NCBI GenBank assembly: GCA_031763025.1
Contig: JASSKH010000039.1
Span: forward strand, 1,612,001-1,676,000
From: Macrocystis pyrifera
Lineage: Eukaryota > Sar > Phaeophyceae > Laminariales > Laminariaceae
Direction: 5' to 3'
Length of the DNA: 64,000 nucleotides
Part shown: positions 2,791-56,050 of the stretch, one piece after another
Position numbering within the stretch: the first letter of the stretch is position 1
Layout: each line of letters opens with the position of its first letter
Program-made: the position numbers and the translations under genes
Notes under the pieces: model-generated
What the model saw: only the letters and a program-made list of their open reading frames with translations
The model's database searches: none
What the model was told of the DNA's origin: nothing

Positions 2791-2804
2791 TTTGTACCTG
2801 GTAT

Positions 2805-4973: not shown

Positions 4974-5048
4974 TTACTGTTGTAACATCGCGTCGTACGT
5001 TAATTCGTATGTAGTTTGGGATCAATGAGGCCTCCTGCTGCGACCAGC
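4974..5048 (+). repeat. 75-bp duplicated segment, left copy
   Basis: TTACTGTTGTAACATCGCGT through GATCAATGAGGCCTC is repeated nearly identically at 5362-5445. This copy has the plain site CGTATGTAG (TA at 5008-5009), which makes it the empty reference for a 7-bp insertion in the other copy. Confidence 0.85.
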
Positions 5049-5361
5049 CGGAGACTCTCACCCAGGGTTACTACTCCCGCGTTGGTTGTCTGGCGATCAA
5101 CACGGCACCTCGTCGCAGAGAGTAGGTACCCCGGTAAAATAAACACTAACAAAACTGATGTCGTTGTCGACGGTACACCTAGCTACCAACGATGGGCGGG
5201 CGGGATGGTCTGTTTTTTCCTAGCCTCTTTCTACTTTGTCGTGCTGTTGTAGAGCTGCGATATCGCTCACGGAGTGATACTCAATCACTGTCTCCCCATA
5301 CAACAAGGAGGCTTTCCCGAAAAGGGATCCACCCTGCTGGCGTCCCCTCTTTTCTGGTCCA

Positions 5362-5445
5362 GATTACTGTTGTAACATCGCGTCGTGCGTTAATTCGTAC
5401 CAGGTATGTAGTTTGGGATCAATGAGGCCTCTCTCTGCTGCGGCA
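5362..5445 (+). repeat. 75-bp duplicated segment, right copy with 7-bp TA insertion
   Basis: Same segment as 4974-5048, but CGTATGTAG has become CGTACCAGGTATGTAG: CCAGGTA inserted after TA (5398-5406). The flanks are otherwise intact, apart from GTACG versus GTGCG a little upstream and a TCTC expansion downstream. Confidence 0.85.
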
Positions 5446-5449
5446 TGAG

Positions 5450-6265
5450 AACATACCCATACTTGTTGACCCTTCTCTTATCTCAATGTCGTCGCTCGTT
5501 TGATGCGTATCCTTTTTGCGGGTGCTTTCTATTCCTTATTGTCCCCAAACGTGTAGCCTAGTTGATTAGGGGTTCTGCTACCGTTGGTTGTCCCGTGGGA
5601 ACGTCGTGTACGATTTTCCAGACCCCTCCGACGGTGATACGCGCTGAGGTATGCGATCGCGGTGTGATGCACCCGGAACGCGTTTACCTGGTTGTCGGCA
5701 CGCAGTGTTGTAGCGTGTCTCCGTGCGGTTCTTCCGGAACTAACATACGCTTGTGTCGTGCTTGGGGGGCGACAAAGGCGGAGCGTTTATGTAGGTGGTC
5801 TCCAACACTATATTTTCTCAGATACCGCAGCCCGCCCCCCACCGTAGATACCATACGCTTTCGTCTAATGAAGCACGCATAACGTCTGCCACAGTCGGCA
5901 TGTTTTCTACGTTTCGCTTGGTCCTCGCCCCCTCATCCCATTTGTTCCTCATTCGCGCGCTATACCTGAGCAGCCATCGCTGAAGGACGCAGTTCAAGAG
6001 GAGAACCGCTTATCTTGTCCCGAGGAGCATCGTCCCTGTCACTTCTCCTCTCCCTCCCCCCCGCCCCTTCCGCCTCTTGGACGCCCTCCAAACCTGAGGA
6101 GTTTGAACATTAACGCAATGCCGCGATCGGCGTCTACGAGAGGCGTCTTAAGGCAGTTAGTCAAGGAAGTCATGCAGCGAAAGGGGGCCCGCATTGTTTT
6201 TTTTTCCTTGTATGAGCCTTTTGACCATTAACCACGCTCCCTTTCGAGACGGAGAGGCAGTAGGG
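5450..6265. other. Gene-free stretch
   Basis: ORFs up to 106 codons without domain or splice support. A C-rich patch (6050-6080) is the only composition anomaly. Confidence 0.3.
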
Positions 6266-10370: not shown

Positions 10371-10724
10371 AGGGGATAAAAGGGTTGAGCTAGCTTTATG
10401 GTACACGTTAGACACGCCTGTTAGAGACAGGGGTAGCAGTGGTTCAACTGTAGTTGTTGTGACTGACAGGCTCGTTAACCCTTATGTGACCCGTTTCAAC
10501 GGATATAAGGGAACCCTTACAAGGGATACTGACCCAAACAATGATAACTGTGGTATTATCAGCGGTATCCGGTTGCGTCTGTGCCGTGTGACTCCATGCA
10601 TTGTAACCCGGACACCAATCATATTATCATGCCCTAATCACGTAGTGACCCTTGCCGGAATCATAGTCACTTCTCCCCGTCAACCCCTCCCCCTATCAGT
10701 CTCTATATTATATACCTGGTATAT
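10371..10724. other. Gene-free stretch with one open frame
   Basis: Part of a 180-codon plus-strand frame (10222-10764). It begins inside the R1 fragment and ends inside the next R1 copy, so the frame is probably fortuitous. The middle (10400-10700) has no recognised repeat and no domain. Confidence 0.25.
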
Positions 10725-15675: not shown

Positions 15676-18600
15676 CTGAGAGGTTCAAACAACAATCGAA
15701 TCGTCACAGAACTACTGTAGGGTAAAATAGCCGTCAGGAGTGATACTATTAATAGAGTGCAAAAACAGCTTCACACGTAGGGCATATATGCAACGATCTT
15801 GATCGCAGATCACTCAGATCCTAGCCCGCCGTTTTGCGGTGTTGTGCAGGATCTGCACAGTACATGCGCAACACAGGAAACGTGTTTTGGGTAATGCAGG
15901 CTGTACGACTCCTACACGGCACCATGATCTATATATCGTAAATGGAGCAGGAATCTATTTTTTCCCTTGAGATACGTGGACCATGAAGTGGACTCCACGA
16001 TTTGTTCCATGCGCCAATAGTATACCGGCATTCAAAAACGTAGGTTCTACTGTACGGCCATACTCTACACAGATTGTGAGATGTTTAACTTCCTGTTTCT
16101 TTATGGAGACGGTATCACAAGAGGCCCGCAAGGGCCCATCTACCGTTGGGTCCTCCTCAACCATAACAATAAGATGATAGACGCCGGCAGGGCTAAGTCG
16201 GTCACGGATATGGAAGCCTATGCAATGCTTGCACAGAAAATGTTTGGCAAACATTCGGCTTTAGAGGGGTTCGAATGTCCCTATTACCACGCGAAAAGTT
16301 TATTTATGTACCTGGTATGCAGCTAAACACTTCAACTTGTAGTGCATCTCAAAGAGGTTGCGCCTATCTGACTCGGCCATGGTTGTTTATTTTGCGGTTA
16401 CAAAGTGGATGCTACGAGGGATCCGTTGGGTACAAACCTGAGCATCTCAACCGTCTTGTACCCGTGCGTATTTGATTTTAGTTTGCGGCCCGCGCGTGAG
16501 TGCTAAGAGCTTACTCTGCGTATTCATAGGGGTTCATATCAAGTAAAGCGGCGTCTCTTCACCTTACTGGCCCATTGTCGACACAATCAAGGAGCTTATC
16601 CACGGTATCGCCATTTTTATGGGATCTTAACATGAGGAGGAGCTCAATATCCCACTCGAAACATGACTTCCAATAACATTTTTTTCGCGGAGCACGACCA
16701 TCATTTGTATGGTAAACTATTACGGGGGAGTCATAGTAATCAGGACCCATCATATGCACAAAAGCATTTACATTCCATATTTTTTTGTGAGGCATAATTG
16801 ATCCTGATTGCTGAGTAATAATCCTAAAACAAACGTATTGGTAAACACATCATGCTATGTAACTGGTGTACAACAATAGTTGCTCACTTGAGGAGCGCAA
16901 CCAATCAGACAATGTTGCCTCAGAAGGGAAAAAAAAGTGCAACTCCGATCGTGGGATGAGCCAAAGGATGAAACTCAGGGGAAAGTTTCGTCGATAAGAA
17001 CGATCTAAGAGGGTAACAAAAAATCTGAGTACGTCAACCTTGTTGACCCATTTACCAGGTAGTTGACACAGAAATGGGGAAGATCGGGGGAAAGATTCGT
17101 CGATACGAATCACGCTGCTAACAGGGTTAGGCACAGACCTGAACATCTCGACCTTGCGGTCCCAGTCGCTGTCTTCCGCCGGATTTTTTCGGATAACTGC
17201 CTGGCGAGTGACCTCGTAGTCTGCCCGGGTGGCGATGTTCTTGGCCACCATCTGGGAAACCGCTGACAGATGCTTCTGAATAGGAGGAGAAAGACTGACA
17301 GGGACAAAACACAGCATATACAGGCCTCTAAACTGAGAGGGAAAAACATGAACATACAATCGCTTCCGAACGGGGAGATAATTACTACCAGGTATTAAAT
17401 AAGAGAAAAACATTCAATCGTAGCGACGGTCGCCTGACAACGCATTGTCTTCGGGGGCCGTTTTTACGAGATTCCACTCGGTAAAAACTTGAAAACGGTG
17501 CCTAGTCGGTGTGTGCTTTGAGTCGGGAGCCTGCCGTATGGGAACTGGAAACGGGTAGGGTACGGTGCTTACCGTAAACCAACCGCCAGAGTGAAGGGTA
17601 TGCCATCCACCGTGCACCAACCGTCAAGATGTAGGGTACGATACTTTCCGTACATCAACCCCCAACGTGTAGGATCCGGCGTTTACCGTACACCACCTGC
17701 CAACCTGTCAATAACGGCGCTTAGCGCATATCAACTCCTGGCATCTGAATGCTGCGGCGTTTTTCGTAAACCAACTGCCAGTATGTGAGGTACGGCGTTC
17801 ACCGTGCACCAACCGCCAACATGTGGGTCACGGCGTTTACCGCAGGGCAACCGGCAATATGTCGGGGACGCTGCTTACCCTACACGCTAACCGCCAACAT
17901 GTAGGATACGTCTTTTACCGTACGCCAACCGATGACATAGGATACGGCGTTTGCTGTACACTAACCACAAATATGCAAGGTACGGTGTTTACCGCACACA
18001 AGAGGCCGACGTAAACCAGGTAGGGTACGGGGCTTGTCGTACACCAACGGTTAGCATGCACCATGGTACATAGTACGCGTTTAGCGCATGACAAATGGAC
18101 TTTACAGTGTTCCAATCGCCAACATGTACGGTATGGGTCGTACTGCACACGAGCCCCCAACGCGTAGTATACGGCGCCAAACTTACACAAGCGGCCTTTT
18201 TTTTTTTAGGGTATTGAGTTTATCGTACATCAACCGCCAACAAGTAAAATACAGCATTTTCCGTCTGCCAACCGCCAACAGGTAGGAGGACACAGGTATC
18301 AACACGCCCAACACGCCCAACATCCACAATTGGTCAGCCTGAATCATCGATCGATCGACCAGGTGTGGTACGCCGATATCTTGATCGATCAACTAGTCAA
18401 ACTGTCAACGACCCCGTCACGTAGCCCATCGTGAATCAATCTTTCACCGTTGACCTTTCAACCAATCATCCACAATTCGATCAGTCTACGAGCGAATCAA
18501 TGCAACCGCCATCCGGCCTACTTAGCCTTCTACCACTCTACAATCCCAATCTAAGCTCTTGTCCTCATCTTAAAACAACACGCGCAAGGTCTGCCGGTCT

Positions 18601-21600
18601 CTATACTGGTACGCACTAACCGCGAAAATATAGATTTACTGTCGTTTGGAAGTCGCGCAGCAGGATATTTGTATCCGTCATGAACTTGTGTGCGCTGCGC
18701 ATGAGTTTTAGGGAAAAAACTAAAAATAGGTATGCCGTAGTGCGGAGGGGAGAGAGGAGCCTTACTAGGTGATTTCCGGTCTGAGTTACGACTAGGAGGG
18801 AGCTGGCCCCAGAAAGGCGAAGGTAATAAAAGGAATGGAAAAACAAAACGAACTAGAACACACACCTTTGGTGCACAATAAGGCGTACACCGGAGGCTTC
18901 AGACAACTCGAAAGGGGCACTGTTTCCGCCGTTCAAGTTAGAAAGTAGAATTTTCTCGCAACATTTGTTTCCGCTCGCACCTGAAAGGCTCGCTTAAGGT
19001 AGCTTCCCCCTCGAGCTCCGCGAGGTGCGCCCCTAGCACCTGCACGTGCCGTCTGCTCTGCACCTCCAAACGGTCCCAGCGCTGCCAAAAGCACGAAACG
19101 TCGCGTTACATTCGTGCGGCAATGGAGAGACAAGAAACAGAACGAGAGATACCACGGTGCTGTAGGGCGGCACACCAAACGTTTCTGATAACCCCCCCTT
19201 GAGGATCCCCGTTCATCATCGAAACGCCGACTTTGAGACAATGTTCAAGCTATCGTAAGGCAGTAGGCATAGCTACTGCACACTGGTACAGTAGTTCTCG
19301 AGCGCACTCACGCCCTCCTTCGTTGCGAGGGCGTCCACCGATCTCTGCACGCCTCGTAGGGTGATCACCACGGAGATGTTGCTCCTCTCCAACCGCTGCA
19401 TCCTGTCCCCGTTCTCCCCCTTGTACAATGCCAGCTCCTTCGCCAGCGCGTTGCTGTTGGCATTCCACATCGCCTGGAGGAAAGGGCAATGCCACGGTAG
19501 GGGGGATGCCTTATTGTTTGCTGAGCTCCACCACCTCCCACGAGGAGCTCGGTATCTCAACCGAAGCATGACTTCGAAGAACGCTCGTTCGCGCAAGACG
19601 GCCAAAATGGCTATGGGCTATTGGTAGTCTTAAAAATCAGGCAGTAAAGAATGTCATACGTACTAACGTCAAGGTAGTTGCTCCCAACAGAGAAGTTCAC
19701 CCGGTCGGAAAACATCAAACTATTGAGCGAAAAAGTGCACATTCTGCCGTTCGGGATAAGTCTGAACGGGGTTATCGCATTCGCTCCCACACACCAGTCC
19801 GATCGGTGGGGGTGGGGGATCGTCGGTGTATTCGAAGGTTATTGTTCTCTATCGCATCGAAAGTTTCGATAAATCAACACATCAAACCTTCTCTATATCG
19901 TTTCGAAGGCGTTTCGCCCTCAACCCCCTGGGATCCCCGCGTTTGTTTACGAAGACACTGAGACGAAAGCTTTGGTGCATCAGAATATCGAAATCGTACG
20001 TAACGACTACCAGGTATTCTTTTGTTTGTGTATCGGTATCGTATCGAACTTGATTATTATACGTACGATATCCAACACCTAGTTCTTCAGTTGACATTGC
20101 GAAGCAAGTCTTCATACCTCAAGCACAGGGCGGCTTTGAGAAATTTTGAAAGCACAAACGATGAAAAATTCTATGGCATAGATAGCTATTCAACGCATAC
20201 TATTGCACACTCCGGATGTATCCGATATATCAGATATACCAGAGAGATAATCTAGATCACCTACAGCTACAGTACATCCTAGCCTGCCGCTATGAGATGT
20301 TCTGTAGGATACATACGTACAGCAGTACATATCCCATCCAGACATCGTGCGATAGATCATGAAGATCACATAGCTCAGCCCCAACCTGGCCACATAGGCT
20401 GGGTCCTACAGATGAGCAACCTATATTTCCCGAAAAATCTCGGAGTAAAACCGCCAAGTAGGAACATGTGATCTGTCTGACGTGTGTAGCATTGCCAAAA
20501 ACAAACGATTTCCCGACAATATTGTGTAGTACCTGAGTTGCATTTGTCGTGCATGTTTTGACCATCAGGTGCTGCGTAGTGTCGGGTACATTCCCCCGTA
20601 ACCGGCGCCAACTGCCATACGTAATACCTTTGCAGTATATCAGGGTATTGTTTCTTTTGCCGTATGATTGGGCGAAATGTTGTGTGGAGGCGTGCCACGA
20701 CAGGGGTAGGACGTTTTTGGCCAACATATTTATGAATGGTCGCCATGCATGCTCCTTGACCCAACATCTTTGGAAAACCATTGGTGCTTTACACTATGTT
20801 TGGTAATGTACCATTCATTGGCTCTGGGATTGTCCGTCGGGTCACCCTTTTATCAATAGCTTTTCCTAAACTCAGCTTTGAAATGACCTAGTAAAGACTT
20901 ACTTATGGAATAGAGCTCCTCAAATGAGCAGCTCCAGACAATTTCGGTGCAAAAATACCCCTATAAGGCAAGCACGCCTTGAATACAATCTATTTACAAT
21001 CCAGGTTTCTAAAAAGAGACATCGACATCGAGCTCTTATCGCGTGAGGGGTCCGAGAAACACACATGACTCTAGGCGCCCCTCCTGCCGTAGTGTCAAGG
21101 CTAAAGGCTAGAGAGCAATGTCGACCCACGCTGCCATAGGGGTACGTATCATAGCACCGAATGCGTTTGAAGCCCTGAGGCGTGATGCGACAGAGGCGTA
21201 TCACGCATACTGCTGTACTATAGTATACTTGTAGTATATAGAGGCGTGCTGCGACAGGGGCATATCACGCATACTATATCGCTCTGACTCGTAATATAGC
21301 ACTTGTTTGGACTGTAGTATGCACATCAAGCGGAGCTAATATTTCCGGTCAGGTTGGTATTACTACCGTAGTTCAGTATGCTATCGTGACGAGGATCCAT
21401 AGGGCAGTACTCTTGGGCCATCCTATTGCTGGCTGACCAGACTCCTCAAGGCCAACGTCGTTGATCGAGTCGCATCCATTTGACTTTTCTCGAAGACCGT
21501 TGCTTGTGGTGAGGTATGGAGCTCCCTCAAGGCCGAGCGAAGAGCCTAATCAAAAATAAATGTTATATATGATACCCCTACAGCTGCACGAGTCCTCCAC

Positions 21601-24600: not shown

Positions 24601-27600
24601 AACTATACACTCCGCACACTGCCACACGGGTAGATCCTATAGTGTCCGTGCCAAGCGATCCCACACGCACTATCGCGGGCAGCCGACACTACTCGCCCGG
24701 CACTATAGAGGGACTACCTTCGCAATGGGAGTTGTGGTGGTTGATATTGGTGTGTTGTGTGAGTGGTGGTACTTGACGTTTGTCCGGGAATGTGAGACGC
24801 CTCTTTTTCAAGTTATGCGACCGGCCACGAGACGATCGTCGGGCAATGCAGCGACCCGCTTAGCGTTTCGACGATCCGCGGCACGCTGTGCGGCCACTCG
24901 ATCCGGGTGATTACAACAGTACAGTTCTATTCGCGCCGGAGTGCGTTTACCTTTATGCCTGGAGGTATCAGTTTACCCCCCTTTATTTTGGTTGTTTTGT
25001 GTTCAACGGTCACCACGGCTGGCGATCGAGTTGGAAAACTTGTTCGGGGTGAACCTCAATTCCGCCACAAGGGGGATGCGTGTGTCCCGTAGTGTGTGTG
25101 TACAGTATACGATAAGGCACCCACGAGGGAGTTGCACAACTATACCTATGCCTGTCTCCGGAAGCGGCCACATCAGAAAATAAATAAATGCATTCGACGC
25201 TATCATCTTGATGCAAGACAGTCCGCCTCACAAACGATTCTTAGTAGGATGCAGCTCACCCTTCACGAGACTCGCCCAACACCCCACGGCGCTTGGCGCC
25301 TGTTGCAAGAAACACCTGCCAGGCAGTTCGGCGAAAGCCTGATGACGTGCTCCTTCCCGGAACTGTGGGGATGCGAGGGTGTATGGTCGTACCATTATGG
25401 CCATCCATGACACGAGTACCAGGTACAACCCCCACCCCCCATACACATTATCCCACCCCACCCCCTCACCCCACCTCGCATCCCACCCACATCTCCCCCC
25501 CCTTCCCCCCCCACTATACGTCACTCTCCACTATACCCCTCCTTCCCTTCTGGACGCTGCAAAAAAAAATGGAACGACATACGCACCTTTTTGTTTAGTT
25601 CTGGTAGTCTTTCGCCGGTCACTTGCTGGAGCTTTGCAAGCTCGTCGCTCAAGACTTTTGACGTGGACCCGATGGCGTTGACCTTGTCCGCCGACGTTTG
25701 TCCGGCCGCCATCGTTTCGTCCAGGCGTGTCCCCAGCAGGGTGATCTGGACGGAAACGTACCAAGCGCGAAACATCACGCATCAAGCGTTGTCCTTGCCT
25801 CTGACGCGTGTTTGCCTTGTAGGGCTGGCACCTAAATTTCTGAGGCATTAGCTCCTCTGAGGAGCTCTAGATACACCTCACCCAACTGCCGACGTTTGAG
25901 AGCAAAACATAGACTGAAATCCTGATTCACAATCAATCCCATAGCTCGGGTTTCAAAACGAACTGCATGCAAAATCCAATCTTGAGTGGGGTACAGATAC
26001 GTGTTAAGTTAGCGGTGCACCTGTTTTTGCCTTCTGTGGCTCCTGGCTTGAAGAATTCTATATTATTACGAGGAGCCACAGTTATTAGGACCAAATATTG
26101 TTGATAAGAATACGTAAATATGTAGGTTTTCATGTATACCATAGGTCCTGTTAACTATGGTCCCTCGTAATGGTAAGAAGTCACAAAAAAACGAAGTGAA
26201 GAGAAAAATGAGAGCGCAACCCGATGGCCTAGGTAGGTATACAACGATTAACATGTACCTTTATGTCACAAACATACGGTGTTCCAAAAAGGAGGCATGT
26301 CTTATAGGGTCGTTCCTCAGCTGCCTCATAGGCCGACAAGTTCTCACCCTATCGTAGGATGCGTCTATTCGTATTAGTACTGTAAGACAGACACTCGCCC
26401 GAGCGGTCTAAGCGCGGAAGTGAAAATGGATGTAACATTCAACGTATGCACGGCGGCGCATATCCTAAAGCAGAGAAGCACAACATCTAAGTAAAACCCC
26501 GCAAAACAAACAGACCAGAGGCACTCGTTCGAGTGGCTTTGAGCTGCGGAAAACCGAGATCCCAGAAGTGGTGCCCCCTACCGCAACATAGTTTCACATT
26601 GTAGTGTAGTATATACAGGCGTGCTGTGGTAGTGTGGAGGTAGTAGCACCTACATTTTCTGAGGACACTGACTTGATTATAGTATAGGAGCTCTGTATCT
26701 CACCCAGAAAATTAAGTGGAGAAAAACTATTATTAATACAGTAATAAAGCTGCAGCCCGATCAATGACCTCGAAGCCTACCAATGTTGCTGATACTACTA
26801 CTAGTAGGAATATCAAGCGAACAGTATTGTAAAGCACTGCTATTATTACTGGTATTCCAACGATATTGGGCTGAGGAGTCCGGCCATTCCCAGTGACACA
26901 ATTTGGTCATAAACTGCCACTCCTATCGCAGTATTCCTCTATGACAGCAGTATATACCAGGTAACAATTAAAATATACCCTGGTAGTGAATATATAATAA
27001 TCATAATATGTGTGATATGCCTATGCCAGTGTAGTGGTCCGAAGTTCCCGCGCAAATTTGATCATCCAGTCGGTAGTTGGGTCAAGGTATACTTCTCCTG
27101 AGGCGTCTGAGTAACGCCTGCTGCGATAGAGGAGCACGGCCAGGGTAGAGGGGTACCACTTTCTGGCTCAATACTTTCTGACCGGTCGAGGTCTTGAAGT
27201 GAGCAAGTACACTGTTAGTAGTACAGAATCGGTTACTACTGTGGGACATATTTATTATTTTAATAGGAACATGTGTGTTAGGACTCTAATGCCTACAAGT
27301 GTTGGTCGGGCCGCGCGAACAAAGTTCTTCGAAGGCGTGTTTCGGGCGAGAGATATTACGCTCCTCGTGTGGTGATGAGGTGACGTGGTGATGTGAGGAG
27401 CTCAAAAGATAAGGCACCACTCCCCCACCGTGGCATTGCTCATAGGTAGCCCCGTCTGATCAAGGTGTCACTGGGACTGACGGGGCTCCTTAAGAGCTCC
27501 CTAAGGGCTCCTTACGGTCAATAGCAGCACTGATGAACTGCCCAATAAGGCATCAAGGCATTAAGGCTCGTCGTATAGATGTAATTCACTGTATACCTAC

Positions 27601-30600: not shown

Positions 30601-33600
30601 CAACGCGCTCAGCTTTTGAGAGCAGTTCTGCAGCAGCTCACTCATCTCTCCGTCCACCTGATCGAAGGCGAGCGTCAGACACGAGGGGTAGAATCGAGCA
30701 ACGGCCAATCCGGTAAGCAGCGCATCACCAAATGTTCAACACCCCACATGGAAAATCAAACACCAATCATTAAGCGTCAAACACCGGTACGCTGGTACCA
30801 CGGCTTCGTCAATAAACGTAGATCATCCCGTGCTCCTGCAGCTCGTTCTGACTGGCGCAGTCCTCGACCCCTCCTTCGGCTCACCTTACTCTCTACGTCC
30901 CTCAAGCTCGCCTCTAGGTCAGATATCATCTGTAGCATGAGCATAGTATCACGGCACAGGGGTTGGATTGGGTTGGGCTGGGTTGGGTTGAGGTGTGGTA
31001 GCTAATGGGTGCGGTAGATCATGGGTGTGGCTGCTCATGGGTAGGACGTTAGGTGGTTAGGTAGGTGGCTGGATTGGTGAGTGGGTGGGTGGTGGGTGGA
31101 TGAGGGGGTATGTGGGTGGCCGGGTCAACAGGTATGGACAAACCAGGGGCGGGCGAGATGTACGCGCTCGTGAACCCACACGAGCACGAATCAAAGATTT
31201 GCTGTTCTTGGTGGTGGAAGGGAACACGGATACAGGATCATGCCTTGCTAGGCAACGATAGATGCTCGTCAATTCAATGCACAATGGCCGATGTAACGTC
31301 AAACCTCGTCGACTCCCGCGCGCGCACGCTGCTGTAGGGGAGCGTTCTCTACGGCACTTGACACACACCTTTGTTACCCCCTCTCCGACTTGTCCTTTCA
31401 CCGTATCCGTGAGGGTTTCCAATTGGTGGTCAATTGTTCCTTGGAATTCCTCCAGCTTCTCAGACAGCTGCTCCGTTGTTTCCTGGGGTAAGCCGGGGCA
31501 CATTTCGGACACACATGTCAGGCGCGTGAGAGGTGCTTCCTCAGCCGGATGTGCCTTATGCAATGGTTCGCGTGGCAATATACCTGGTATTGGGCTTGGT
31601 TTAGGCTGAAGATGTGAACGGGTGGGTGAATGGGTGGGTGGGTGGGTGGGTGGCTAGGTGGCTGGGTGGTTCGGTGAGTGGGTGGGTGGGTGGGTGCGTT
31701 GGTACGTAGTCGAGTTGGTGGGTGGGTGGGTGGGTGAGTAATGGGGTTGGGAAGTGGGTAGAGCGGGTGGGCCATTCAGTAGGACACGGTGTAGCAGTAG
31801 CTTCACCCTTTACAGAGGCGCGCGGCTTTTCCCTTGTCCAGTCTCTGGTTGATCGCGTGGTCACGTTATGAATATGTCTATAGCACGTGTATGCCTATTG
31901 CCAATGGGAATGGAGACACGACTGACATCTAGTGGATTTCGTGACAAGCTCGCAAAGAAGCATCACACACGTCGGGCACATCAGATCCCCGGTTTCAGGG
32001 TCCATATCGTTTGGGCAAGACGTATACCTGGTTTACGTGACCTACATCATCTAGATCCTGTCTGCCGGAAGGGTTGTTTGTGACACGGCTCCCTCTTCTT
32101 GAACACATGTTTGCTGGGTGATACGTGTATGTTTTCAGCTCTTGCACAACATCCCCCAAAAGCGCACATAAGATCTCGCTAATCTGTTATATGGTGATGT
32201 ATATCCATGACCTATCCGATCGTTGAAATGGTTGTGTGTTGGTTCTCCTGCAGTTGATCACGGCCCTACCCTTGGTGTCGTACATACCAGGGCATTGGAG
32301 ACGATATAAACAACAGGCTCGTCGACTGCTTGTCAGTCTCCTCCTGAAACCCTTCCGCGTGTCGTGAATGATACCAGGTACACCGGTTGAGGGAAAAAAT
32401 TAAATATAAAAAATGCCTCCACTCTCCCCACTACAACCGGGCGAATTCAATGACGAGGTTTGATGAAGTGTCGATTTTTGGAAGTAATATTACACTATCT
32501 AGAGCATTTAGTTCGTCTACAGTGCATCTTCATAACCTGCTGCCGTTGCGACACGCTATGCAGACTCTGCTTAGTACAGGCCCAACCCAAGAAACAGCGT
32601 CTAGACCATGGAGATTATTTCGGCCTCGAGCCGGCCTCATGAGGCAGCTCACACAGAAAGGTGCCTGTCTTCCATGAAGCTTCTATAGTGGGTCATGTAG
32701 TTGTTCAGGAGATCGGCGATCTGTCCGAAGCGTGAGTTGTTTTCCCTACCTGAGCATGGAGCTGGGACCGGTCATCCTTTCAACACGCGAAAAATACTCC
32801 TGCGAGTGAGGCATCGGTTGGCTCACCGACTGCGCGACCATCTCCTCCCGAACCCCTTCCGCGTCTCTCCGGAGATCCGCCACACTGTTGGCAATCTCCT
32901 GGAAGGAAGGTGGTGGACCCTCTCCATCTGATAGATCTACCCCGAGGAGAGCAGTGATTACTCTGATCTTGTCGTCCACGTCCTCGCCGGCGCTGTGGCC
33001 CGTTTTCGTCCGCACGGACCGGGAAAAAAAAACAGGCCCAAAACCAGACAGGCAGTAGGTTAACAGCATGGTATGGTAGCGGGTGTATGTGCAGGAAGTG
33101 TCCAGAACAGGCAGTGTTATAATAGAGGCCTGTTCCCGTACGGGGTGGAGTGCACCTACGTGCAAACAAACAGGCAGTATAAGGGGTCTGGTTTGATACG
33201 GAGGGGGGGGGGGGGGGGGGGGGGTACCTAGGTTTCCAAAGTCAGTGGAGGCACTACTAGAGGCATGTTACGGTAGGGGGCAGTATAGGCGGTGGACCCT
33301 TTCCTTCGAACGGATATATCTCGAGAACTGCAGTTGTTCCCCGCATCTTGTCGTCCACATTTCCCTCTGCGCTGTCGCCGCTATCATCAGACCGGCGCAG
33401 GAACCGAAATCAACAAAGCCAATAAAACAGTCTGTTGTTCAGCGGTATACCATCGTAAGAGAGCTGCCCCCCCCCCCCCCCCCTTCTCGAAAATTATGTA
33501 TCCCGAGTATTTGTTATCGTCGACCCTTGGGTGCTATCGCAGGTTTTGAGGTGCTCGTGTGGGGAGCCCCAGAAACGTTAGGTGCCCTTACCCATACGGT

Positions 33601-42600: not shown

Positions 42601-44204
42601 CCTTTTTACTTTGGTTTTCCATTTGAAGTGGTAATCACTGCCAGGTGCGCAATGGGACCTCGTGGAAATTAATGCAAGCCCATGGGCACTGCCATGAAAA
42701 AGACCGTTGTTGTTGTATTTCGGAAGGAGATGCCACCGTCGTTGTAAGGTACACCCTTCATAATCCTCTGTTGTTTTTTTCCGTGACAGCAATACTGCTG
42801 CTGCCGGTGCCACGGAGCGTAGGATACAGGAGGCGTCACGTCGTACAGTAGCGCCAAAACTACGTAGAATGCAACTTACCACACGGAACTCTTTCAGATG
42901 TTCCCGCTTTTACGCCGCCACCGTCCGAAAAATCTACCCCCACTTTCCCGCGCGGGCCCACGCTACGAACATGCCCGTACCACCTGGAGCCTTGGTGTTG
43001 CACATGGCACGTATGTACTCGGCGACAAATCAAGCTCAAGATCATGTCAAGCAGAGAAAATGGTGTTGCTATTGTTTCTGGTACGAGTAAAAAGGCAGTG
43101 CCAACTGATCCTAGTGTGTTGTGTTGTACCATTACTCGGTGGTCCAGTGATGCCCTCGAATGCTGCTACTGTAGGGCTGATTCCGTGAGTTCAAATCCAA
43201 CCGTGGTGATAATTTCTATATTTGCAAAACTAGCAAAGGAGTCAACTGCTGAGAGCGCGTAGCGTGGGTAGACGCAATTGGACGCGGGTCGACGCGGGAA
43301 GAAAGGCTGAGGATTTCTCGCGATAAAAACGAAGGCACGAAACGTAGTGAGGAGGGGGGAGAAGAGTCTACCATGTGACCCCGGATCTGAGTTATGACTA
43401 GAGGAGTGAGAGAAAGAAGGGCGAAAATAGCAGGAAAAAAAAAGAACAAACGAACAAACGAACAAACAAGCAATTTGTAATATGATCCTGGCACAGTTTT
43501 AGACAGTACAGGCCTCGGGTCACGAGAGACCAAGCTAGGCCCTCCAATGACTCGGATCGAATTCGACACATCTCGGTGTGGGGCTCCCTTTGTACTGTAG
43601 ACAAGTGTCACCTCTATCACCTTCAATCCCACTGATCCTATTTTTCGTCTACCTGGTATACAACACGAGGTCCGCCAAAGTACGACAAGTCCCCCGTACT
43701 GAAGCGCAACGATCTCCCAGCTGAGTATTACTAGTCTCTTCAACGTTTGTGGAGACCAGGCCTTACTAAAATTAACGCCTGCGTGCCATGTCGCGCGTGT
43801 GTGTCGGAGATTTTCCGTTCATCCTACAGTAACTCGGGTACGTAATCTATACCTCAGCAGCATGCCTCCTACTGCTGGCGGTGTTTGACCGACGCCGCTG
43901 TCACAGCTGTACGCGTCACTGCATTCGACAATCTCGCGGAACTCCCAAAGGGGCTACTCGTAGAGCGATAGGAAAACAAAAAAGCGATTGACCCCACAGA
44001 TACACCATCAAAGCTGCAAAGCTAAAGTACAGCATCCAAGTTGTGTATCCTTTCCGCACATACACTATGGGCTTTTCGTCAACAGCTCCTCTCTTTCTTC
44101 GTCTCTCTCACTCACCTGTCTGTCAGCTCCTTCAAGGCGCTCTCTAGCCCGGAACTCGTCAGCTCGACGCTCAACAGTTCCACTTGTTCGTCATGACTAA
44201 CCAT
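15519..44204 (-). CDS. Large multi-exon coiled-coil protein gene (partial; 20 exons placed)
   Basis: I placed 20 exons between an ATG at 44204 and a donor at 15519. Junction phases agree along the chain: 2, 1, 2 or 0 (one ambiguous), 0, 0, 0, 2, 0, 0, 0, 0, 1, 0, 0, 0, 0, 2, 0, 2. The summed length of 2094 bp is exactly 698 codons. Introns run from 42 bp to about 4 kb and are full of repeats. The protein is hydrophilic and mostly heptad-like (LKELTDRVDDL, ELLQNCSQKLSALTEEIQ, QLSEKLEEFQGTIDHQLETL), with no signal peptide, membrane span or catalytic motif seen. The last exons (from 17275 down) look less coiled-coil and more globular (RYLDKFVADV). No terminal exon or stop is certain; candidates lie at 12.5-13.1 kb. 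I do not recognise the family; a structural, cytoskeletal or tethering role is only a guess from the coiled coil. Several exons are multiples of about 27 codons. Confidence 0.7.
15770..15885 (+). repeat. Repeat R3, copy 3 (short)
   Basis: ACACGTAGGGCATATATGCA, then AGATCACTCAGATCCTAGCC and TTGTGCAGGATCTGCAC. In intron 19 of the coiled-coil gene. Confidence 0.55.
15955..16330. other. Unassigned intronic sequence with open frames
   Basis: Both strands are open for 80-100 codons (plus: VTDMEAYAMLAQKMFGKHSA; minus: VYHLIVMVEEDPTVDGPL). No domain, and no splice pairing with neighbours. Could be a fragment of an unrelated gene or element. Confidence 0.2.
16975..17132 (+). repeat. Tandem duplication flanking exon 19
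   Basis: GGGGAAAGTTTCGTCGATAA (16979) recurs as GGGGAAAGATTCGTCGATAC (17088), each followed by a GA-rich then GGGTAAC/AGGGTTAGG block. A TACCAGGTA lies between them at 17054-17062. Confidence 0.6.
17139..17275 (-). CDS. Coiled-coil gene exon 19
   Basis: Strong acceptor (CTCCTCCTATTCAG|AAG), phase 0; donor TTCAG|GTCTGT in phase 2. Contains LSAVSQMVAKNIATRADYEV and PAEDSDWDRKVEMF. A decayed copy of the exon end and donor is at about 16425-16460 (GTTGAGATGCTCAG|GTTTGT). Confidence 0.8.
17490..18300 (+). repeat. Minisatellite, about 38-bp unit, roughly 20 units
   Basis: Units of the type AACCGCCAACATGTAGGGTA followed by CGGCGTTTACCGTACACC. Lies wholly in intron 18 of the coiled-coil gene. ORFs here are translations of the unit. 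Confidence 0.85.
18640..18694 (-). CDS. Coiled-coil gene exon 18
   Basis: ATGCGCAG|C in phase 2, ACGACA|GTAAAT in phase 0; 18 codons, AHKFMTDTNILLRDFQTT. The donor is weak, but the alternative (CGCG|GTTAGT) would not match the phase of exon 19. Confidence 0.5.
18720..18860 (+). repeat. Repeat R5, fragment
   Basis: CCGGTCTGAGTTACGACTAG followed by a GGAGGGAG and GAAAGGCGAAG block matches 43375-43440 and 53935-54000, with an A-rich tail (GGAAAAACAAAACGAAC). Confidence 0.5.
18981..19081 (-). CDS. Coiled-coil gene exon 17
   Basis: CTTTTGGCAG|CGC in phase 0; CCTTTCAG|GTGCGA in phase 2. Contains RWDRLEVQSRRHVQVLGAHL then AELEGEATL. Confidence 0.7.
19312..19473 (-). CDS. Coiled-coil gene exon 16
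   Basis: 54 codons (twice 27), phase 0/0: TTCCTCCAG|GCG ... GAGGGC|GTGAGT. Contains NALAKELALYKGENGDRMQR and VVITLRGVQRSVDALATKEG. If the donor is not used the frame runs 13 more codons to a TAG at 19270, so an alternative end of the protein here is possible. Confidence 0.8.
19845..20085 (-). repeat. Repeat R9, copy 2 (reverse)
   Basis: Reverse sense of 2805-3065 and 42225-42430; CGAAATCGTACGTAACGACT corresponds to the GATACGATTTCGAT block. Carries a TACCAGGTA at 20008-20016. Confidence 0.55.
20190..20425 (+). repeat. Repeat R3, copy 4
   Basis: TCTAGATCACCTACAGCTAC, ACATCCTAGCCTGCCGCTAT and GTTCTGTAGGATACATACGT correspond to the core of the other copies. Confidence 0.55.
20430..22940. other. 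Intron 15 of the coiled-coil gene, part
   Basis: No further exon recognised. Holds R2 hairpin blocks at about 20900-20945, 21510-21545 and 22295-22360, a small duplicated GCGTGATGCGACAGAGGCGTA / GCGTGCTGCGACAGGGGCAT pair (21179 and 21245), a 17-nt poly-G tract (22824-22838 region) and a 223-codon plus ORF (22438-23109) that is antisense to exon 15. Confidence 0.4.
22945..23097 (-). CDS. Coiled-coil gene exon 15
   Basis: 51 codons, phase 0/0: CCCGCGGAG|ATC ... GAGCACCAG|GTAGGT. Contains MAIVSGRIGGLSEDVSRLLG. The acceptor has little pyrimidine; an earlier acceptor in the same frame is possible. Confidence 0.75.
23310..23520 (-). pseudogene. Two decayed tandem copies of exon 15
   Basis: GCGGAGATCTCTGACACCAT..ATCGTGAGCGG (23463-23515) and a weaker version GGAGGTCTTTGAGTATATGG (23320-23380) repeat the 5' part of exon 15, with the flanking GGAGCACAAACACA block also repeated. 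The nearer copy loses the frame early. Confidence 0.65.
23525..24975. other. Intron 14 of the coiled-coil gene, part
   Basis: R2 hairpin block at 23908-23950, and GTGGTGATATTAGCG-like degenerate repeats at 24420-24530. No exon. Confidence 0.35.
24985..25430 (-). repeat. Interspersed repeat R1, reverse copy with 7-bp TA insertion
   Basis: Runs from CGGTCACCACGGCTGGCGAT to CACGAGTACCAGGTACAACC. The end reads GAGTACCAGGTACAACC where four other copies read GAGTACACC or GAATACACC: CCAGGTA inserted at TA (25417-25425). Confidence 0.75.
25587..25745 (-). CDS. Coiled-coil gene exon 14
   Basis: 53 codons, phase 0/0: TTTCCGTCCAG|ATC ... AAAAAG|GTGCGT. Contains LLGTRLDETMAAGQTSADKV and LSDELAKLQQVTGERLPELN. 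Confidence 0.85.
26064..26175 (-). mobile_element. Small MITE (family R7), copy 1
   Basis: About 107 bp, inverted ends ATTACGAGGGACCATAGTTA / TAACTGTGGCTCCTCGTAAT on the reverse strand. Aligns end to end with 34303-34414. Confidence 0.7.
26176..27055. other. Intron 13 of the coiled-coil gene, part
   Basis: R2 hairpin block at 26640-26720 (TTTTCTGAGGACACTGACTT then GAGCTCTGTATCTCACCC). TACCAGGTA at 26955-26963. No exon. Confidence 0.35.
27060..27425 (+). mobile_element. Putative non-autonomous DNA element (family R8), copy 1
   Basis: About 360 bp, from AACGCCTGCTGCGATAGAGG to CACCACTCCCCCACCGTGGC. Diverged copy at 40340-40690 with the same order of blocks (GGGGTACCACTTTC, AAGTGAGC, AGTGTTGGTC, TCTTCGAAGGCGTGTTTC). 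The ends echo the CTACGATAG core of the 265-bp MITE. Confidence 0.55.
27955..28690 (-). pseudogene. Decayed tandem copies of the exon 13 3' half
   Basis: The block AAGGGCGTTGACTACAGGCT..AAG-GTGGGCTATAGAC of exon 13 recurs, diverged, near 28155-28215, 28225-28285, 28590-28660 and, weaker, 27960-27990. The spacing of the middle pair is about 66 bp. Frames are not maintained. Confidence 0.6.
28962..29095 (-). CDS. Coiled-coil gene exon 13
   Basis: CCACGCAG|CT enters in phase 1, GATGAG|GTGGGC leaves in phase 0; 44 full codons. Contains ALMEQARAQEENMQVAHDDL and FEKGVDYRLSAVKDE. Its last third resembles the end of exon 6 (FEGRLSLVDEK), suggesting common origin. Confidence 0.8.
29217..29302 (+). 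repeat. R2 hairpin block, well-preserved copy
   Basis: CCTACATTTTCTGAGGCTCC, CTGATTGAAGAATAGTGAGT and CTCACCCGAGGAGCTGATCA. About 20 partial copies occur in the window (also near 3670, 20905, 21510, 22300, 23910, 25845, 26650, 27655, 30055, 33548, 34035, 34190, 35335, 38395, 45305, 47300, 60205). It is the conserved interior or end of several related MITEs. Confidence 0.6.
29489..29588 (+). repeat. Two tandem 51-bp units
   Basis: AGTATGTTGCACATGGTCGA, GTGACAAACCTAGCGTTATG and GAATGCTGTT, then the same with four base changes. The GTTGTACATGG in unit 2 versus GTTGCACATGG in unit 1 is a substitution, not an insertion. Confidence 0.9.
30564..30657 (-). CDS. Coiled-coil gene exon 12
   Basis: TTCGATCAG|GTG in phase 0; ACTGAAG|GTACTC in phase 1. 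Contains EMSELLQNCSQKLSALTEEI. Phase 1 is matched by exon 13. Confidence 0.75.
30885..30929 (-). CDS. Coiled-coil gene exon 11
   Basis: 15-codon micro-exon, phase 0/0: ATGCTACAG|ATG ... AGTAAG|GTGAGC. Reads MISDLEASLRDVESK. Confidence 0.7.
30955..31135 (+). repeat. GGGTTGG / GGGTGG low-complexity tract
   Basis: TTGGGTTGGGCTGGGTTGGG then GGTGGGTGGTGGGTGG. Lies between exons 11 and 10. Confidence 0.8.
31369..31482 (-). CDS. Coiled-coil gene exon 10
   Basis: 38 codons, phase 0/0: TTACCCCAG|GAA ... ACAAAG|GTGTGT. Contains LSEKLEEFQGTIDHQLETLT, a clear amphipathic heptad pattern. Confidence 0.8.
31610..31755 (+). repeat. (GGTG)n minisatellite
   Basis: Nearly uninterrupted GGGTGGGTGGGT with CTAGGTGGCTGGGTGG variants. 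On the minus strand it gives a Pro-Thr-His ORF that is not a gene. A TACCTGGTA lies just left (31581-31589). Confidence 0.9.
31960..32265 (+). repeat. Repeat R3, copy 5
   Basis: CACACGTCGGGCACATCAGA, CATCATCTAGATCCTGTCTG and TATCCGATCGTTGAAATGG. In an intron of the coiled-coil gene. Confidence 0.55.
32827..32898 (-). CDS. Coiled-coil gene exon 9
   Basis: 24 codons, phase 0/0: CCTTCCAG|GAG ... CAGTCG|GTGAGC. Contains EIANSVADLRRDAEGVREEM. Only a 42-bp intron separates it from exon 8, so 32827-32992 could alternatively be read as one exon; the splice signals favour two. Confidence 0.65.
32941..32992 (-). CDS. Coiled-coil gene exon 8
   Basis: Short exon of 52 bp. Acceptor GGCCACAG with a TTTTTTTTTCCCGG tract upstream; one base completes the codon from exon 7, then AGEDVDDKIRVITALLG and donor GGG|GTAGAT in phase 0. 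A decayed copy of it (with VDDK retained) lies at about 33315-33375. Confidence 0.6.
33200..33224 (+). repeat. Poly-G tract
   Basis: About 24 consecutive G (one of several homopolymer G/C tracts; a poly-C lies at 33469-33482). Likely unstable and error-prone. Confidence 0.9.
33244..33400 (-). pseudogene. Decayed tandem copy of the exon 8 region
   Basis: About 380 bp upstream of exon 8, GGTGGACCCT..TCC, a TTGTCGTCCAC block and GCGCTGTCGCC repeat the exon-8 region. It still reads AEGNVDDKMRGTTAVLE after GACAG, but the donor GT is gone. Confidence 0.6.
34303..34414 (+). mobile_element. Small MITE (family R7), copy 2
   Basis: TATTACGGGGGGGACCATAG at left and ACTATGGTCCCCGGTAATAA at right form a TIR of about 25-30 bp around a 50-bp centre. 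A one-ended relic is at 16685-16750. Flanks suggest a TAA or TTA target site (as in PIF/Harbinger MITEs), not proven. Confidence 0.75.
34415..34695 (+). mobile_element. SINE-like retroposon (family R4), copy A
   Basis: GTGTTCTTCGCATTAAACCG, CCAGCACAACCAGTGTCCGT, AAACTACGCCACATAG and GATACGACAGACACGACATA, then an A-rich tail (AAACAAAAAAAAAAAG). Contains TACTCGTA (34504-34511) where copies C and D lack it. No pol III boxes confirmed; could be a LINE 3' end. Confidence 0.65.
35100..36220. other. Intron 7 of the coiled-coil gene, part
   Basis: No placed exon. A plus-strand frame at 35454-35710 reads MFMPDPCIAPAGALTGDGAV and looks ordered, but has no domain or splice partner. R2 block at 35335-35375. 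Confidence 0.25.
36228..36343 (-). CDS. Coiled-coil gene exon 7
   Basis: ACACCGCAG|GTATCC, phase 0 in; CAGCG|GTGAGC, phase 2 out. Contains VSEQLLRVMDQVRIIKESTQ and GLLMDRIEDAFSDIQ. Confidence 0.75.
36850..37045 (-). repeat. Repeat R3, copy 6
   Basis: GATCTACAGTAGTTCTCTCG, ACAGATCCTGCACAACCTCT and TGCTGTAGATGATCTATCTG match the R3 core in reverse sense (AGATCCTGCACAAC is the complement of GTTGTGCAGGATCT). Confidence 0.55.
37601..37681 (-). CDS. Coiled-coil gene exon 6
   Basis: Exactly 27 codons, phase 0: TTCCGTTCAG|GCG ... GAGAAG|GTGAAG. Contains VEMNSMREEMEQAFEGRLSL. Its acceptor and first half recur three times upstream in the intron. Confidence 0.75.
37770..38100 (-). pseudogene. Three decayed tandem copies of exon 6
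   Basis: Exon-6-like acceptor plus first codons recur about every 120-140 bp: CGTCCAG|GCGATAATGG (near 37822), ACCTTCAG|GCGATAAATC (near 37936) and CCCTGCAG|GTGAGTAGC (near 38084). Each is followed by a MExxH/MESM-like stretch and GAGGA. Donors and reading frames are degraded. A pattern of tandem exon duplication followed by decay. Confidence 0.65.
38190..38270 (-). CDS. Coiled-coil gene exon 5
   Basis: Exactly 27 codons, phase 0 on both sides: TTTGCAG|CTCATG ... AGAAAG|GTGCGA. Contains MELDRIGRELVAKFTHKDAL. Confidence 0.7.
38980..39235 (-). repeat. Repeat R3, copy 7
   Basis: ATCTACAGGCCATCACC, CAGACCCTGCGCGACATCTT and GGCAGCTTAGGGTAGATAGA. Diverged, same order as 36850-37045. Confidence 0.45.
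39403..39472 (-). CDS. Coiled-coil gene exon 4 (5' border uncertain)
   Basis: Encodes AEQVRVATNKKEALLEGR before a good donor AGG|GTGAGC. The acceptor is AAAAG at 39473 (phase 2) or AAATAG at 39481 (phase 0); the choice depends on the donor used by exon 3. No strong pyrimidine tract. Confidence 0.45.
39720..40175 (+). repeat. Polypurine tract of about 450 bp with degenerate internal repeats
   Basis: Very G+A-rich on the plus strand, with recurring GGGTTTCAGTCAAAC / GGGTTTCCAAAGGAAG / GGGTTTCCGCAAGAGC modules spaced about 50-60 bp. Lies in intron 3. Potential triplex-forming sequence. Confidence 0.75.
40340..40700 (+). mobile_element. Family R8, copy 2
   Basis: AACGCCTGCTACGATAGAAA to CACCACACCTACCGTGACAT. 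See the block order of 27060-27425. Confidence 0.55.
40949..41081 (-). CDS. Coiled-coil gene exon 3
   Basis: Acceptor ATGAAG after a pyrimidine tract (CTCTTACTTTTGG), phase 1, matching exon 2. Contains TPEQQLAAVAEAIVSMGNNV. Donor either CACAG|GTATAAG (40949, phase 2) or TATAAG|GTCCTG (40942, phase 0). A diverged copy of the 5' part lies in the intron at about 41220-41290. Confidence 0.6.
41877..41965 (-). CDS. Coiled-coil gene exon 2
   Basis: Acceptor GGTGGCAG, donor AAAAA|GTAAGT. One base completes the Arg codon from exon 1, then VDDLECRNKAQQERLASSNE, leaving in phase 1. Confidence 0.6.
42225..42432 (+). repeat. Repeat R9, copy 3
   Basis: GAATCGACTTCGATACGATA, CGATTCGATACGATCTCG and TTCGATACGATAGATGTGT. 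In intron 1. Confidence 0.55.
43185..43490 (+). mobile_element. SINE-like repeat R5, copy 1
   Basis: GAGTTCAAATCCAACCGTGG (B-box-like), TCAACTGCTGAGAGCGCGTA, then GACCCCGGATCTGAGTTATG and an A-rich tail (GGAAAAAAAAAGAACAAACG). Other copies: 49660-49920 (reverse), 53800-54030, 54200-54350, and a fragment at 18720-18860. Confidence 0.55.
44116..44204 (-). CDS. Coiled-coil gene exon 1 (start codon)
   Basis: ATG at 44204, 29 codons, donor GACAG|GTGAGT in phase 2. Contains VELLSVELTSSGLESALKEL. No acceptor with a pyrimidine tract is visible before it, so I take it as the first coding exon; an upstream exon entering at TTAG is possible. Confidence 0.5.
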
Positions 44205-49310: not shown

Positions 49311-49659
49311 TTTATAGTGCCTTGAGGATAGCTGGCGTGGTGGTTGCAATGACGACCCAGCCATGGTCGACCTGGCTACGCAGCCTCAACAGTTATTTCG
49401 AGGTTCATTCGTTCTTCGTTTTGTGCAAATAAATTAACAACCTCGTCACCGCGGGGTTCGAAGTCACGAAATTAACGCTATACTACTGCAGTTGGTAGTA
49501 CTGCTGTACCAGGTAGGAGCAGAGCATTCGAGAACGCCACTATTACTATTAACAGACGGTATACGCATATACTGCTGTAATAGATATAGCTACTGCGTTG
49601 GACAACGGTCCAACGGTAGTTTACGTATTGCGCGAGTAGTTCCGACCACTTTTGTTGTG

Positions 49660-53200: not shown

Positions 53201-53799
53201 GTTCAAGCGATTTCGTGTTCACTAAATCTGAAAAGAGTACATATCTAAGCGTCAAGGGAAAAAGCAGGTAAACCGAACCAGATAGAAACAAAGACGTGTA
53301 TGGAGCAACAACGCAACAATCCCGGCGGAATTAATCTTGCTGACATTCGCTGGCAAATCTACAGACCGTACCGGTATGCTGGTATTTTATACCTGGTACT
53401 ACTGCTGTAGGGTGTTGGGGCGCAGCTCTATTGGTGGTGGTGTCTTTGTCCACGTTTTGTACGAGAAGCAGTTGCGTGCCAATGGTGCAAGCGTAATGCG
53501 CACATATTATACATGCAGATGGGGAAAACCTATTTCCCTGTTGTTGCCCCGACCACTGTTTGAGGCTGTAGGATGGCGGTAGCGGCAGCATTAAAAAAAA
53601 TACATAGCTACCATCATTATTAGTGGTTGAAAGACAAACAACAAAACCACGACCAAACCCGGACAACCGGGCAAAACCGTTTTTTTTTCTCAGTCTCTTG
53701 TGGTCACCCCCGTCGATAAAACTTTAACTTTCAGCTCGCCCCAATCAACCTACTCTTAATATATATACACAGTACAGTAGGCGCATTTCGACGCTATTA

Positions 53800-54659: not shown

Positions 54660-56050
54660 TAACAGGCTTGAGGGAAACCAACACAACAAAACGACAATCC
54701 CGGCGTACTCAACTCAATGGTTGGCGGGAAACTCGAACGAACACGTTCGGCTGGCCCAGTTCAGTTTGTGGAGTGATGCGTATATGTCCGCGTGTAGTCG
54801 TGTACGAGCGACCGAGTATCATTGTGAGGGGCATATACTCACATCCATTAGGTATCAGTATATGCCATATGCCTGTCCCCTATCCCCGTTTTTTTTGGAT
54901 TCGACTATTACTGTAATAGCAGTGGCCGCCCGGTGTTGACAAACCTCATTTTGGTGTCCAGGCTCAACGTCTTAGTTTGTTTCCGACGATGTATAGGATT
55001 TAGACTGGGTCTCGCCGTTGAGCTGTGTTTCTTGACCCAACTTTATTGTTATCCGCGCTACAACCTGAACCTATTTTCGTTAGCATCATGTTTGTTTCCT
55101 GCGGGCGCCCATTATTAATACAACCGCTTTTTTGCTGTACGAGTATGGGCTTTCACTTCGGACAACGGCAACAACTATGAAAACGATATGTTCTCGTGTA
55201 ATGTTGACAACTCAAGTGACCTGGCTGACAGAGTCCCGATGGCGCGCAGTGACCAGCGCTGGCATGATACTGATATTGCGGTCAGTAGAGGTTATTGCTA
55301 ATTCGACAAAATGGTTGAGGTATACTGTGCACGAGGTAACAGGCGGTCTGATCGGCTTTCGGTTTGGTTAGTCATAGTGTACTAATTCAAAGTCAGACTA
55401 CGAGAGTACATATTCCATGTTACATGTATATCTCGTACGTACGCATGTTGTGTTTTTCACGTTCTGTGTATGTGTTCTCCACATTAAACCGTTCTTTCGA
55501 CCCATCCATCGAGCATCGACTTCCTACACTACTGAAAATAGGGTTAGGGTACATATCTACAGAGTATCACATGCATTCTGCAGCTGTCGCAATTGACAGC
55601 AGTAATATGTTGACGGGTATAAACACACACAAGACTGCGTGTATGTAGGTATGTACTTATCGAATGTATTTTACCAGAGCTCCGAGCCCCCAGATATCGG
55701 TTCGTAGTTTGTTTCATTTCAACGGAAACAACCGCAACCAGAACCGTAGTTCGCAACGGATTTTGCTTTTACCCACTCCTAAACATAATCTTCCCGAAAT
55801 ATTTTACGTATTTATTGGGGCAACGGACAACCTTTCGCTTGCAAATATCCGGCGCTTTTGCATATCTATCTCAGGGGAGATATCGCTCACATTGTATAAT
55901 TGATAATCAGCGACCTACCAGGTACTGCGTACCAACACGCCTCTGACAAAACCCAGGGCGCCCACCAGTCCACACACATAGCTAAGTGATCGACTTCTCC
56001 AGTTCACAATCGTCTGTGGTTCAAACGACAGTAAGCTTGGTCGTCGAGCA
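54660..56050. other. Intergenic region upstream of the dynamin gene
   Basis: No gene. The segment 55160-55290 has an open plus frame (NYENDMFSCNVDNSSDLADR) with no partner. No TATA or other promoter motif I would defend; TACCAGGTA lies 130 bp before the ATG (55916-55924). Confidence 0.3.

Follow-up and report, generated by a model that had tools for sequence, protein, structure and literature searches.

The window, a 64,000-nucleotide stretch (C129:1612001-1676000) of one kelp assembly of 537,376,219 bases and 223 contigs, holds two related segments, one of which carries a short insert at a TA dinucleotide (Table 1). Their letters read CGTATGTAG at 5006-5014 and CGTACCAGGTATGTAG at 5396-5411, and the CCAGGTA of the second has no counterpart in the first, just as the first-pass annotation had described. 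Positions 4974-5009 pair with 5364-5399 at 97%, and 5007-5041 with 5404-5438 at 91%. The earlier description of near-identical segments with an insert stood; its statement that they differ at one place did not, as they are further set apart by an A/G substitution (TACGTT versus TGCGTT) and, close to the 3' edge, by a CTC (CCTCCTGC versus CCTCTCTCTGC). Elsewhere in the window, an open frame on the plus strand (56053-57111) matches Dynamin_N (E 2.7e-39) and part of Dynamin_M, and a perfect (CT)51 tract occupies 7812-7913. Rfam (gathering thresholds) and tRNA searches of the window returned nothing.

Table 1 Features of the window bearing on the insert and its interpretation.
Feature	Position	Strand	Basis
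Putative LINE-like retroposon copy, truncated at 5950	4974..5950	-	copy comparison
Module 1 of retroposon 3' tail	4974..5042	-	fixed end of the element at 4974
Empty TA within CGTATGTAG, sister module	5008..5009	none	direct read, segment alignment
Module 2 of tail, carrying the footprint	5364..5445	-	about 390 bp from module 1
7-bp insert CCAGGTA (footprint CCAGG + duplicated TA)	5400..5406	none	derived on trees
TACCTGGTA footprint-type motif, own context	2795..2803	none	motif count + context comparison
TACCTGGTA footprint-type motif	10713..10721	none	motif count + context comparison
TACCTGGTA footprint-type motif	16309..16317	none	motif count + context comparison
TACCAGGTA footprint-type motif	17053..17061	none	motif count + context comparison
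TACCAGGTA footprint-type motif	17386..17394	none	motif count + context comparison
TACCAGGTA footprint-type motif	20008..20016	none	motif count + context comparison
TACCAGGTA footprint-type motif	25417..25425	none	motif count + context comparison
TACCAGGTA footprint-type motif	26955..26963	none	motif count + context comparison
TACCTGGTA footprint-type motif	31581..31589	none	motif count + context comparison
TACCAGGTA footprint-type motif	32372..32380	none	motif count + context comparison
TACCTGGTA footprint-type motif	43650..43658	none	motif count + context comparison
TACTGCTGTACCAGGTA: two footprint-type motifs, one TA in common	49499..49515	none	motif counts
TACCTGGTA footprint-type motif	53390..53398	none	motif count + context comparison
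TACCAGGTA footprint-type motif	55916..55924	none	motif count + context comparison
TACTGGTACCAGGTA: 4-bp + 5-bp footprint-type motifs, one TA in common	57310..57324	none	motif counts

The two segments belong, as modules spaced about 390 bp from each other, to a dispersed repeat, for which first-look searches gave 1326 and 1207 candidates. Copies of the repeat, compared over up to about 1.9 kb each, with six translated for open frames, end at a fixed point corresponding to 4974, outside which the flanks are unrelated; the opposite end is variable. At 5950 the window copy stops and the other 32 of 33 compared copies continue, one of them diverged, and some copies start at module 2 only. One fixed end with variable truncation at the other indicates a retroposon on the minus strand, putatively LINE-like, whose 3' end is fixed and whose 5' end is truncated. 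Because both segments are paralogous modules within a single retroposon tail, the pair alone cannot prove the direction of change; the family does.

A pattern spanning the variable ('hot') TA had 601 matches. Of the first 100 matches listed, 96 were empty, the four others holding CCAGGTA (the window copy), CCTGGTA, CCAC and one additional T. Non-empty sites were sought with a second pattern, which found 35 places (reversed control, 0), with CCAGG or CCTGG at 23 of them; the rest include CCAG, CTGG, CCTGA, CCATGG, CCTTTGG, CCAC and a CAG at the neighbouring TA, and two resemble plain duplications (for example C205:5524502, C197:1531182). An assembly artefact, which had been raised at first pass as a possible undoing of the claim, is unlikely because CCAGG/CCTGG recurs at this site on many contigs. 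We then assembled 130 modules from 70 merged loci; as 30 of these loci were taken from the 35-place set, non-empty sites are over-represented in the sample. Within it, 86 modules were in the 4-nt empty state and 44 in a longer one, some of the latter not being scars; CCAGG was present in 15 modules and CCTGG in 15, with both in two modules. Tandem scars at the hot TA read CCAGGTACCTGG and CCAGGTACCAGG.

A left-junction pattern, CGTTAATTCGTACC, occurred at 28 places, 16 of them shared with the 35 non-empty places and one of the other 12 being the filled site on C202 described below. The place at C220:10908363 (L017) carries CCAG, that at C218:14014105 reads CCAGG, and at C211:8438637 the coordinates position the right junction as a 5-bp footprint would put it. 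Thirty letters were read at each of the eight remaining places, giving CCAGGTA in L102, L105 and L106, CCAGGCA in L107, CCG in L108, the double scar CCAGGTACCAGG in L103, and, in L104, CCAGGTACTGGTA, after which the sequence departs from the repeat. The last of them (L109, C221:9777998-9778027) reads CCACTTTTTTG..., with CCACTTTTTTGTTC... after the hot TA, and may be another filled site holding a different element, of which the near end was read. A 6.5-kb filled-site candidate on C218, proposed from coordinates, turned out on reading to be two separate footprints.

Trees were built with the variable site masked, from 55 of the 57 two-module copies (two with an aligned length under 600 were dropped); an earlier tree held 54 of the 57, copies under 1000 letters having been left out. 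As to direction and INDEPENDENCE, the 15 longer states per module need 12 (module 1) and 13 (module 2) Fitch changes, close to the shuffled means of 13.3 and 13.4, so the longer states show almost no inheritance. They are derived, nearly always private to a single copy, and the insert originated many times over in different copies. On the earlier tree, C190_1909553, which carries CCATGG, and the window copy are nested in a young, otherwise empty clade of low internal support. The CCAG common to the C203 pair L011 and L012 is put down to duplication, since these copies are nearly identical. In this non-random sample, terminal branches had a median length of 0.020 where a longer state was present (27 copies) and 0.008 where it was absent (28 copies), as expected if scars accumulate with age.

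Together with a right-junction pattern (50 places), the left-junction pattern led to a filled site at C202:11112962 (L099), where 79 bp, CCACTCTGACCCGAAATATAAAGACC...GGTCGCTATATATCGGTTCAGACTGG, lie between CGTA and TATATAG and have the ends CCA...TGG. Because this copy holds an element at the hot TA, that position is seen empty, filled and scarred, the filled state in one fully read copy. The element has a predicted hairpin of -23.2 kcal/mol with arms of 21 pairs over 26 positions. Its family comprises 420 candidates, of which 40 were scored: 11 besides the query matched at 99% over all 81 letters, and for eight of those scored, the coordinates of reverse matches over 1-81 imply a TA on both sides. 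A related longer element in C207_4940214 (L091, at 2462-2632) ends in CCACTCTGGGCGG and CCAATCTGGACGG, with TA on both sides. In keeping with a Tc1/mariner-type miniature inverted-repeat transposon (MITE), the TA target is duplicated (L099 lies between TAs, and empty sites have one TA fewer), the terminal inverted repeats (TIRs) are short, 79 bp give no coding capacity and, by comparison of copies, excision leaves TIR-derived bases and a duplicated TA. No intact element with CCA...TGG ends was found in the window, where a scan for inverted repeats was uninformative (9 flanked by TA versus 14 flanked by AT). What the first-pass annotation called an empty-site and filled-site pair is instead, in the window, an empty site and a footprint. 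Another small inverted-repeat element, with ends like TACGGGGGACCATAGTAAATAGGACC, lies at about 34308-34399 of the window and at other loci (for example C205_5523002, C197_1529167).

The motif is not confined to the repeat. TACCWGGTA occurs 16 times in the window, in 16 different contexts, versus a mean of 0.57 in 100 shuffles; chance is excluded because no shuffle reached 16 and the two segments belong to a dispersed repeat. Among 16 dinucleotides tested as duplicates around CCWGG, TA gave 16 and the others 0-2, and CCWGG was the commonest palindromic 5-mer between TAs (16; next, 4). Against the sequences analysed, the other 15 window contexts matched only themselves, apart from one empty-looking match for that at 10713. 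Pairs of catalogued strings with a common TA showed a weak excess (7 versus 2.9 expected).

Across the genome, TACCWGGTA was found at 121,279 places versus 2,421 for the reversed control, about 50-fold more and on average one per 4.4 kb. The window's 16 contexts per 64 kb match this average, and high-copy repeats therefore need not be invoked, while regular spacings among the matches listed indicate that some places probably lie in repeats. The element-type start TACCANTCTG occurred at 10,597 places versus 2,215 for its control. The excess of about 8,400 ends corresponds to about 4,200 elements if each contributes two. Set against an excess of about 118,000 scars, this gives up to about 28 scars per recognisable element of this MITE type, an upper bound because elements with other ends starting CCA would leave the same scar.

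Searches for a transposase gave 39 genome matches to PF03184 (DDE_1), 28 without internal stops and 14 spanning positions 1-175 without stops. PF13358 had no genome matches (control genomes matched in 3 of 14), and PF01359 had none in the genome or in the controls and is thus uninformative. No TACCANTCTG end lay within 40 kb of the DDE_1 matches on C9, C14, C32 and C56, among the matches listed, and the PF03184, PF13358 and PF01359 searches found no transposase linked to CCA...TGG ends. Inward-facing TACCANTCTG ends at C4:120924-124628 (3.7 kb) and C19:45210-49192 (4.0 kb) are possible larger or autonomous candidate elements.

Other strings between TAs were also enriched. Insertions of 5-8 bp outside the main TA of the repeat copies duplicated TA in 10 of 18 rows, with no other dinucleotide above 2; since one C212 insertion (CAG, at the neighbouring TA of the hot site) was seen twice and one row is a tandem duplication, the distinct count is 9 of 17, one doubtful. 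These include CCAGG and CAG, and CTG, CTCG, TTAA and TTGG once each. Relative to a first-order Markov model, counts between TAs in the window and in 121.6 kb of flanks were, respectively, 16 versus 0.44 and 34 versus 0.73 for CCWGG, 41 versus 7.2 and 46 versus 11.6 for CAG/CTG, 15 versus 0.77 and 24 versus 1.28 for TTAA, 8 versus 0.11 and 17 versus 0.18 for CAGCAG/CTGCTG, and 16 versus 1.5 and 24 versus 2.48 for CGAG/CTCG. The flanks were masked only against repeat copies and downstream stretches, so a few upstream-flank sites of the duplicated C203 and C219 pairs are counted twice. CAG, CTCG and TTAA combine TA-flanked enrichment with new insertions in retroposon copies.

TACAGTA/TACTGTA stands at 41 window places in different contexts (for example 7244, 25101, 45206, 61270) and is also present as derived insertions in repeat copies, making it a second, CAG-type scar class. 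One derived insertion in repeat copies was seen for each of TACGAGTA/TACTCGTA (16 window places, for example 1461, 30555, 43082) and TATTAATA (15, for example 7554, 44949). TACGATA/TATCGTA occurs at 27 window places (for example 3043, 20037) versus 6.2 expected, and the non-palindromic 6-bp string between TAs in TACAGCAGTA at 8 (for example 12302, 20318, 49499) versus 0.11; in two repeat copies (L072, L073) TACAGCAGTA lies beside CCAGG or CCTTTGG. ATAATAA and ATAA look like microsatellites and were left uncounted as scars. Enrichment in the window or flanks extends to CGA, ATAG and CTAC, and to strings as short as CA and CG.

We conclude, with a probability of roughly 0.9, that CCAGGTA at 5400-5406 is the footprint left by a Tc1/mariner-type miniature transposon that targets TA and has excised. 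The first-pass annotation had proposed excision of a TA-targeting transposon; this is borne out by the spectrum of footprints at the same TA across repeat copies, by the derived and private nature of the longer states, and by the copy that keeps a 79-bp inverted-repeat element between the same TAs. A short inverted-repeat element with ends CCA...TGG would enter the first TA of CGTATRTAG, duplicating the TA, and would later excise, part of its ends staying behind. If the transposase leaves a 3-nt end (CCA) on each side, ends joined with zero overlap would give CCATGG (6 bp), a one-base overlap with an A opposite A mismatch would give CCAGG or CCTGG (5 bp), and a two-base overlap would give 4-bp products, CCAG and CTGG among them. 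These forms are present, the one-base class is dominant, and CCAGG and CCTGG are equal in number. CCAC equals four bases of the 79-bp element's left end; CCGCGG, CCTTTGG, CTAGG and CCTGA fall outside the overlap rule and may be later changes. The hot site would be a hotspot within a TA-rich target, tandem scars would form because the TAs retained in each scar are open to further insertion, and several element types appear to have scarred the whole genome by the same process.

It is very unlikely that the insert is instead ancestral and the empty sites are 7-bp deletions between GTA repeats (GTACCAGGTA to GTA), arising by slippage or by a reverse transcriptase skipping a small palindrome. GTA direct repeats do stand on both sides of the unit and CCWGG is present in several diverged copies, but the empty majority among the matches listed, the tree and a second TA all disfavour deletion. 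On the 55-copy tree, losses only would take 18 and 25 events in modules 1 and 2, versus 13 and 13 for gains only, and the longer states are mostly single tips, also within young empty clades. Where one module of a copy has a longer state, its partner is mostly empty: among the 57 two-module copies, 29 were empty/empty, 12 longer/empty, 12 empty/longer and 4 longer in both. At the second TA of the same repeat, CCAGG is present in one copy and 46 matching places are empty. Inheritance of one old excision in a retroposon master copy is scarcely probable. The C203 pair demonstrates that inheritance or duplication occurs, yet the states are scattered with almost no phylogenetic signal, the footprints differ between modules 1 and 2, and CCAGG and CCTGG are balanced.

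Highly iterated palindromic motifs are known from cyanobacteria (HIP1), and the very high copy number of TACCWGGTA would suit a motif of that sort, kept or spread by protein binding or repair bias and no scar at all. We hold this highly improbable, because in the repeat copies the motif comes in by insertion of 7 bp, which duplicates the TA, and not by substitution, because a single site shows 4-, 5- and 6-bp forms as well as tandem ones, and because in one copy that site is filled by an element whose ends match; other TA-flanked strings, moreover, show like behaviour. A domesticated transposase with programmed excision and dedicated end-joining, as for the internal eliminated sequences of ciliates, would add to the excision reading, not replace it, and would account for the surplus of scars over elements (about 118,000 excess scars versus about 8,400 excess TIR-type ends). 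Kelp scars are also uniform, whereas in the available text of PMC4423477 most of 94 rice excisions carried deletions or filler. Even so, programming seems very unlikely: nothing found indicates timing or programming, ordinary repeated hopping also yields many scars per surviving element, and the element count covers one end sequence type.

Excision remains the preferred reading, and with up to about 28 scars for every surviving element, the scar spectrum would form a countable record of hops. On balance we lean towards some 10^5 excisions by this element type and several times that over all scar types, the genome-wide figures for non-CCWGG scars being an extrapolation from the window and its flanks, and towards reading the spectrum as a record of both hops and joining rules. 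Empty, filled and scarred states stand side by side in one family, and about 10^5 further scars seem to be spread over the genome. Hop number, the ratio of excision to insertion, the position of end cleavage and the choice in end joining become countable in kelp, and the scars would be a ready marker set for kelp populations. At the level of titles and abstracts, the literature on footprints, MITEs and brown algae yielded no report of such scars. Papers containing TACCAGGTA or TACCTGGTA had, among the matches listed, titles unrelated to transposons, and the words 'mariner' and 'mite' are absent from the main text of the kelp genome paper (PMC10498591).

Several known systems leave comparable footprints. 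Stowaway elements in the strict plant sense have TIRs starting CTCCCTCC, and the Sleeping Beauty footprint is CAG/CTG between TAs, an odd-length palindrome with A or T at its centre. The kelp ends, CCACTCTG and CCAGTCTG, place the element outside Stowaway in that strict sense, and the insert CCAGG is not the 3-bp Sleeping Beauty footprint; CWG between TAs does occur elsewhere in the window. The available text of PMC1925063 describes Stowaway elements of Triticeae that were gained and lost repeatedly at a single site, with an insertion beside a footprint, and whose footprints fall into five types, each built from TIR fragments 1-4 bp long; that of PMC4561436 has mariner/Stowaway excision leaving TIR-derived overhangs. 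The kelp MITE is likewise short, TA-flanked and inverted-repeat, with footprints of TIR-end bases and a duplicated TA, and it too came and went repeatedly at one site across a tree, inserting also beside footprints already there. In contrast to Stowaway, the main kelp footprint is the 5-bp CCWGG, with parsimony requiring 25 changes for one TA position, over two modules, in 55 copies of one genome and about 10^5 scar-type motifs genome-wide.

The kelp scar shares with Sleeping Beauty an odd-length palindrome with an A/T centre, with the Sleeping Beauty/ZB type in general the TA duplication, and with ZB, which leaves 0-3 bp footprints and prefers palindromic AT targets according to the available text of PMC7913693, a preference for palindromic AT-rich targets. 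It differs in being 5 bp and not 0-3 bp long, and in a joining that would use a one-base and not a full overlap. With rice DNA transposons (PMC4423477) it shares the cut-and-paste mode of excision and the double-strand-break repair that comes after it; among 94 rice excisions, 8 left just the two copies of the target site and all others had deletions, filler or both, unlike the scars at the kelp hot site, which are short and mostly of few kinds. The published footprint studies compared here, to the extent of their available text, deal with tens of events, and the kelp repeat alone offers some two dozen independent events at one base position. The kelp scars are the same kind of event as the known footprints, with a different scar and a far greater apparent number.
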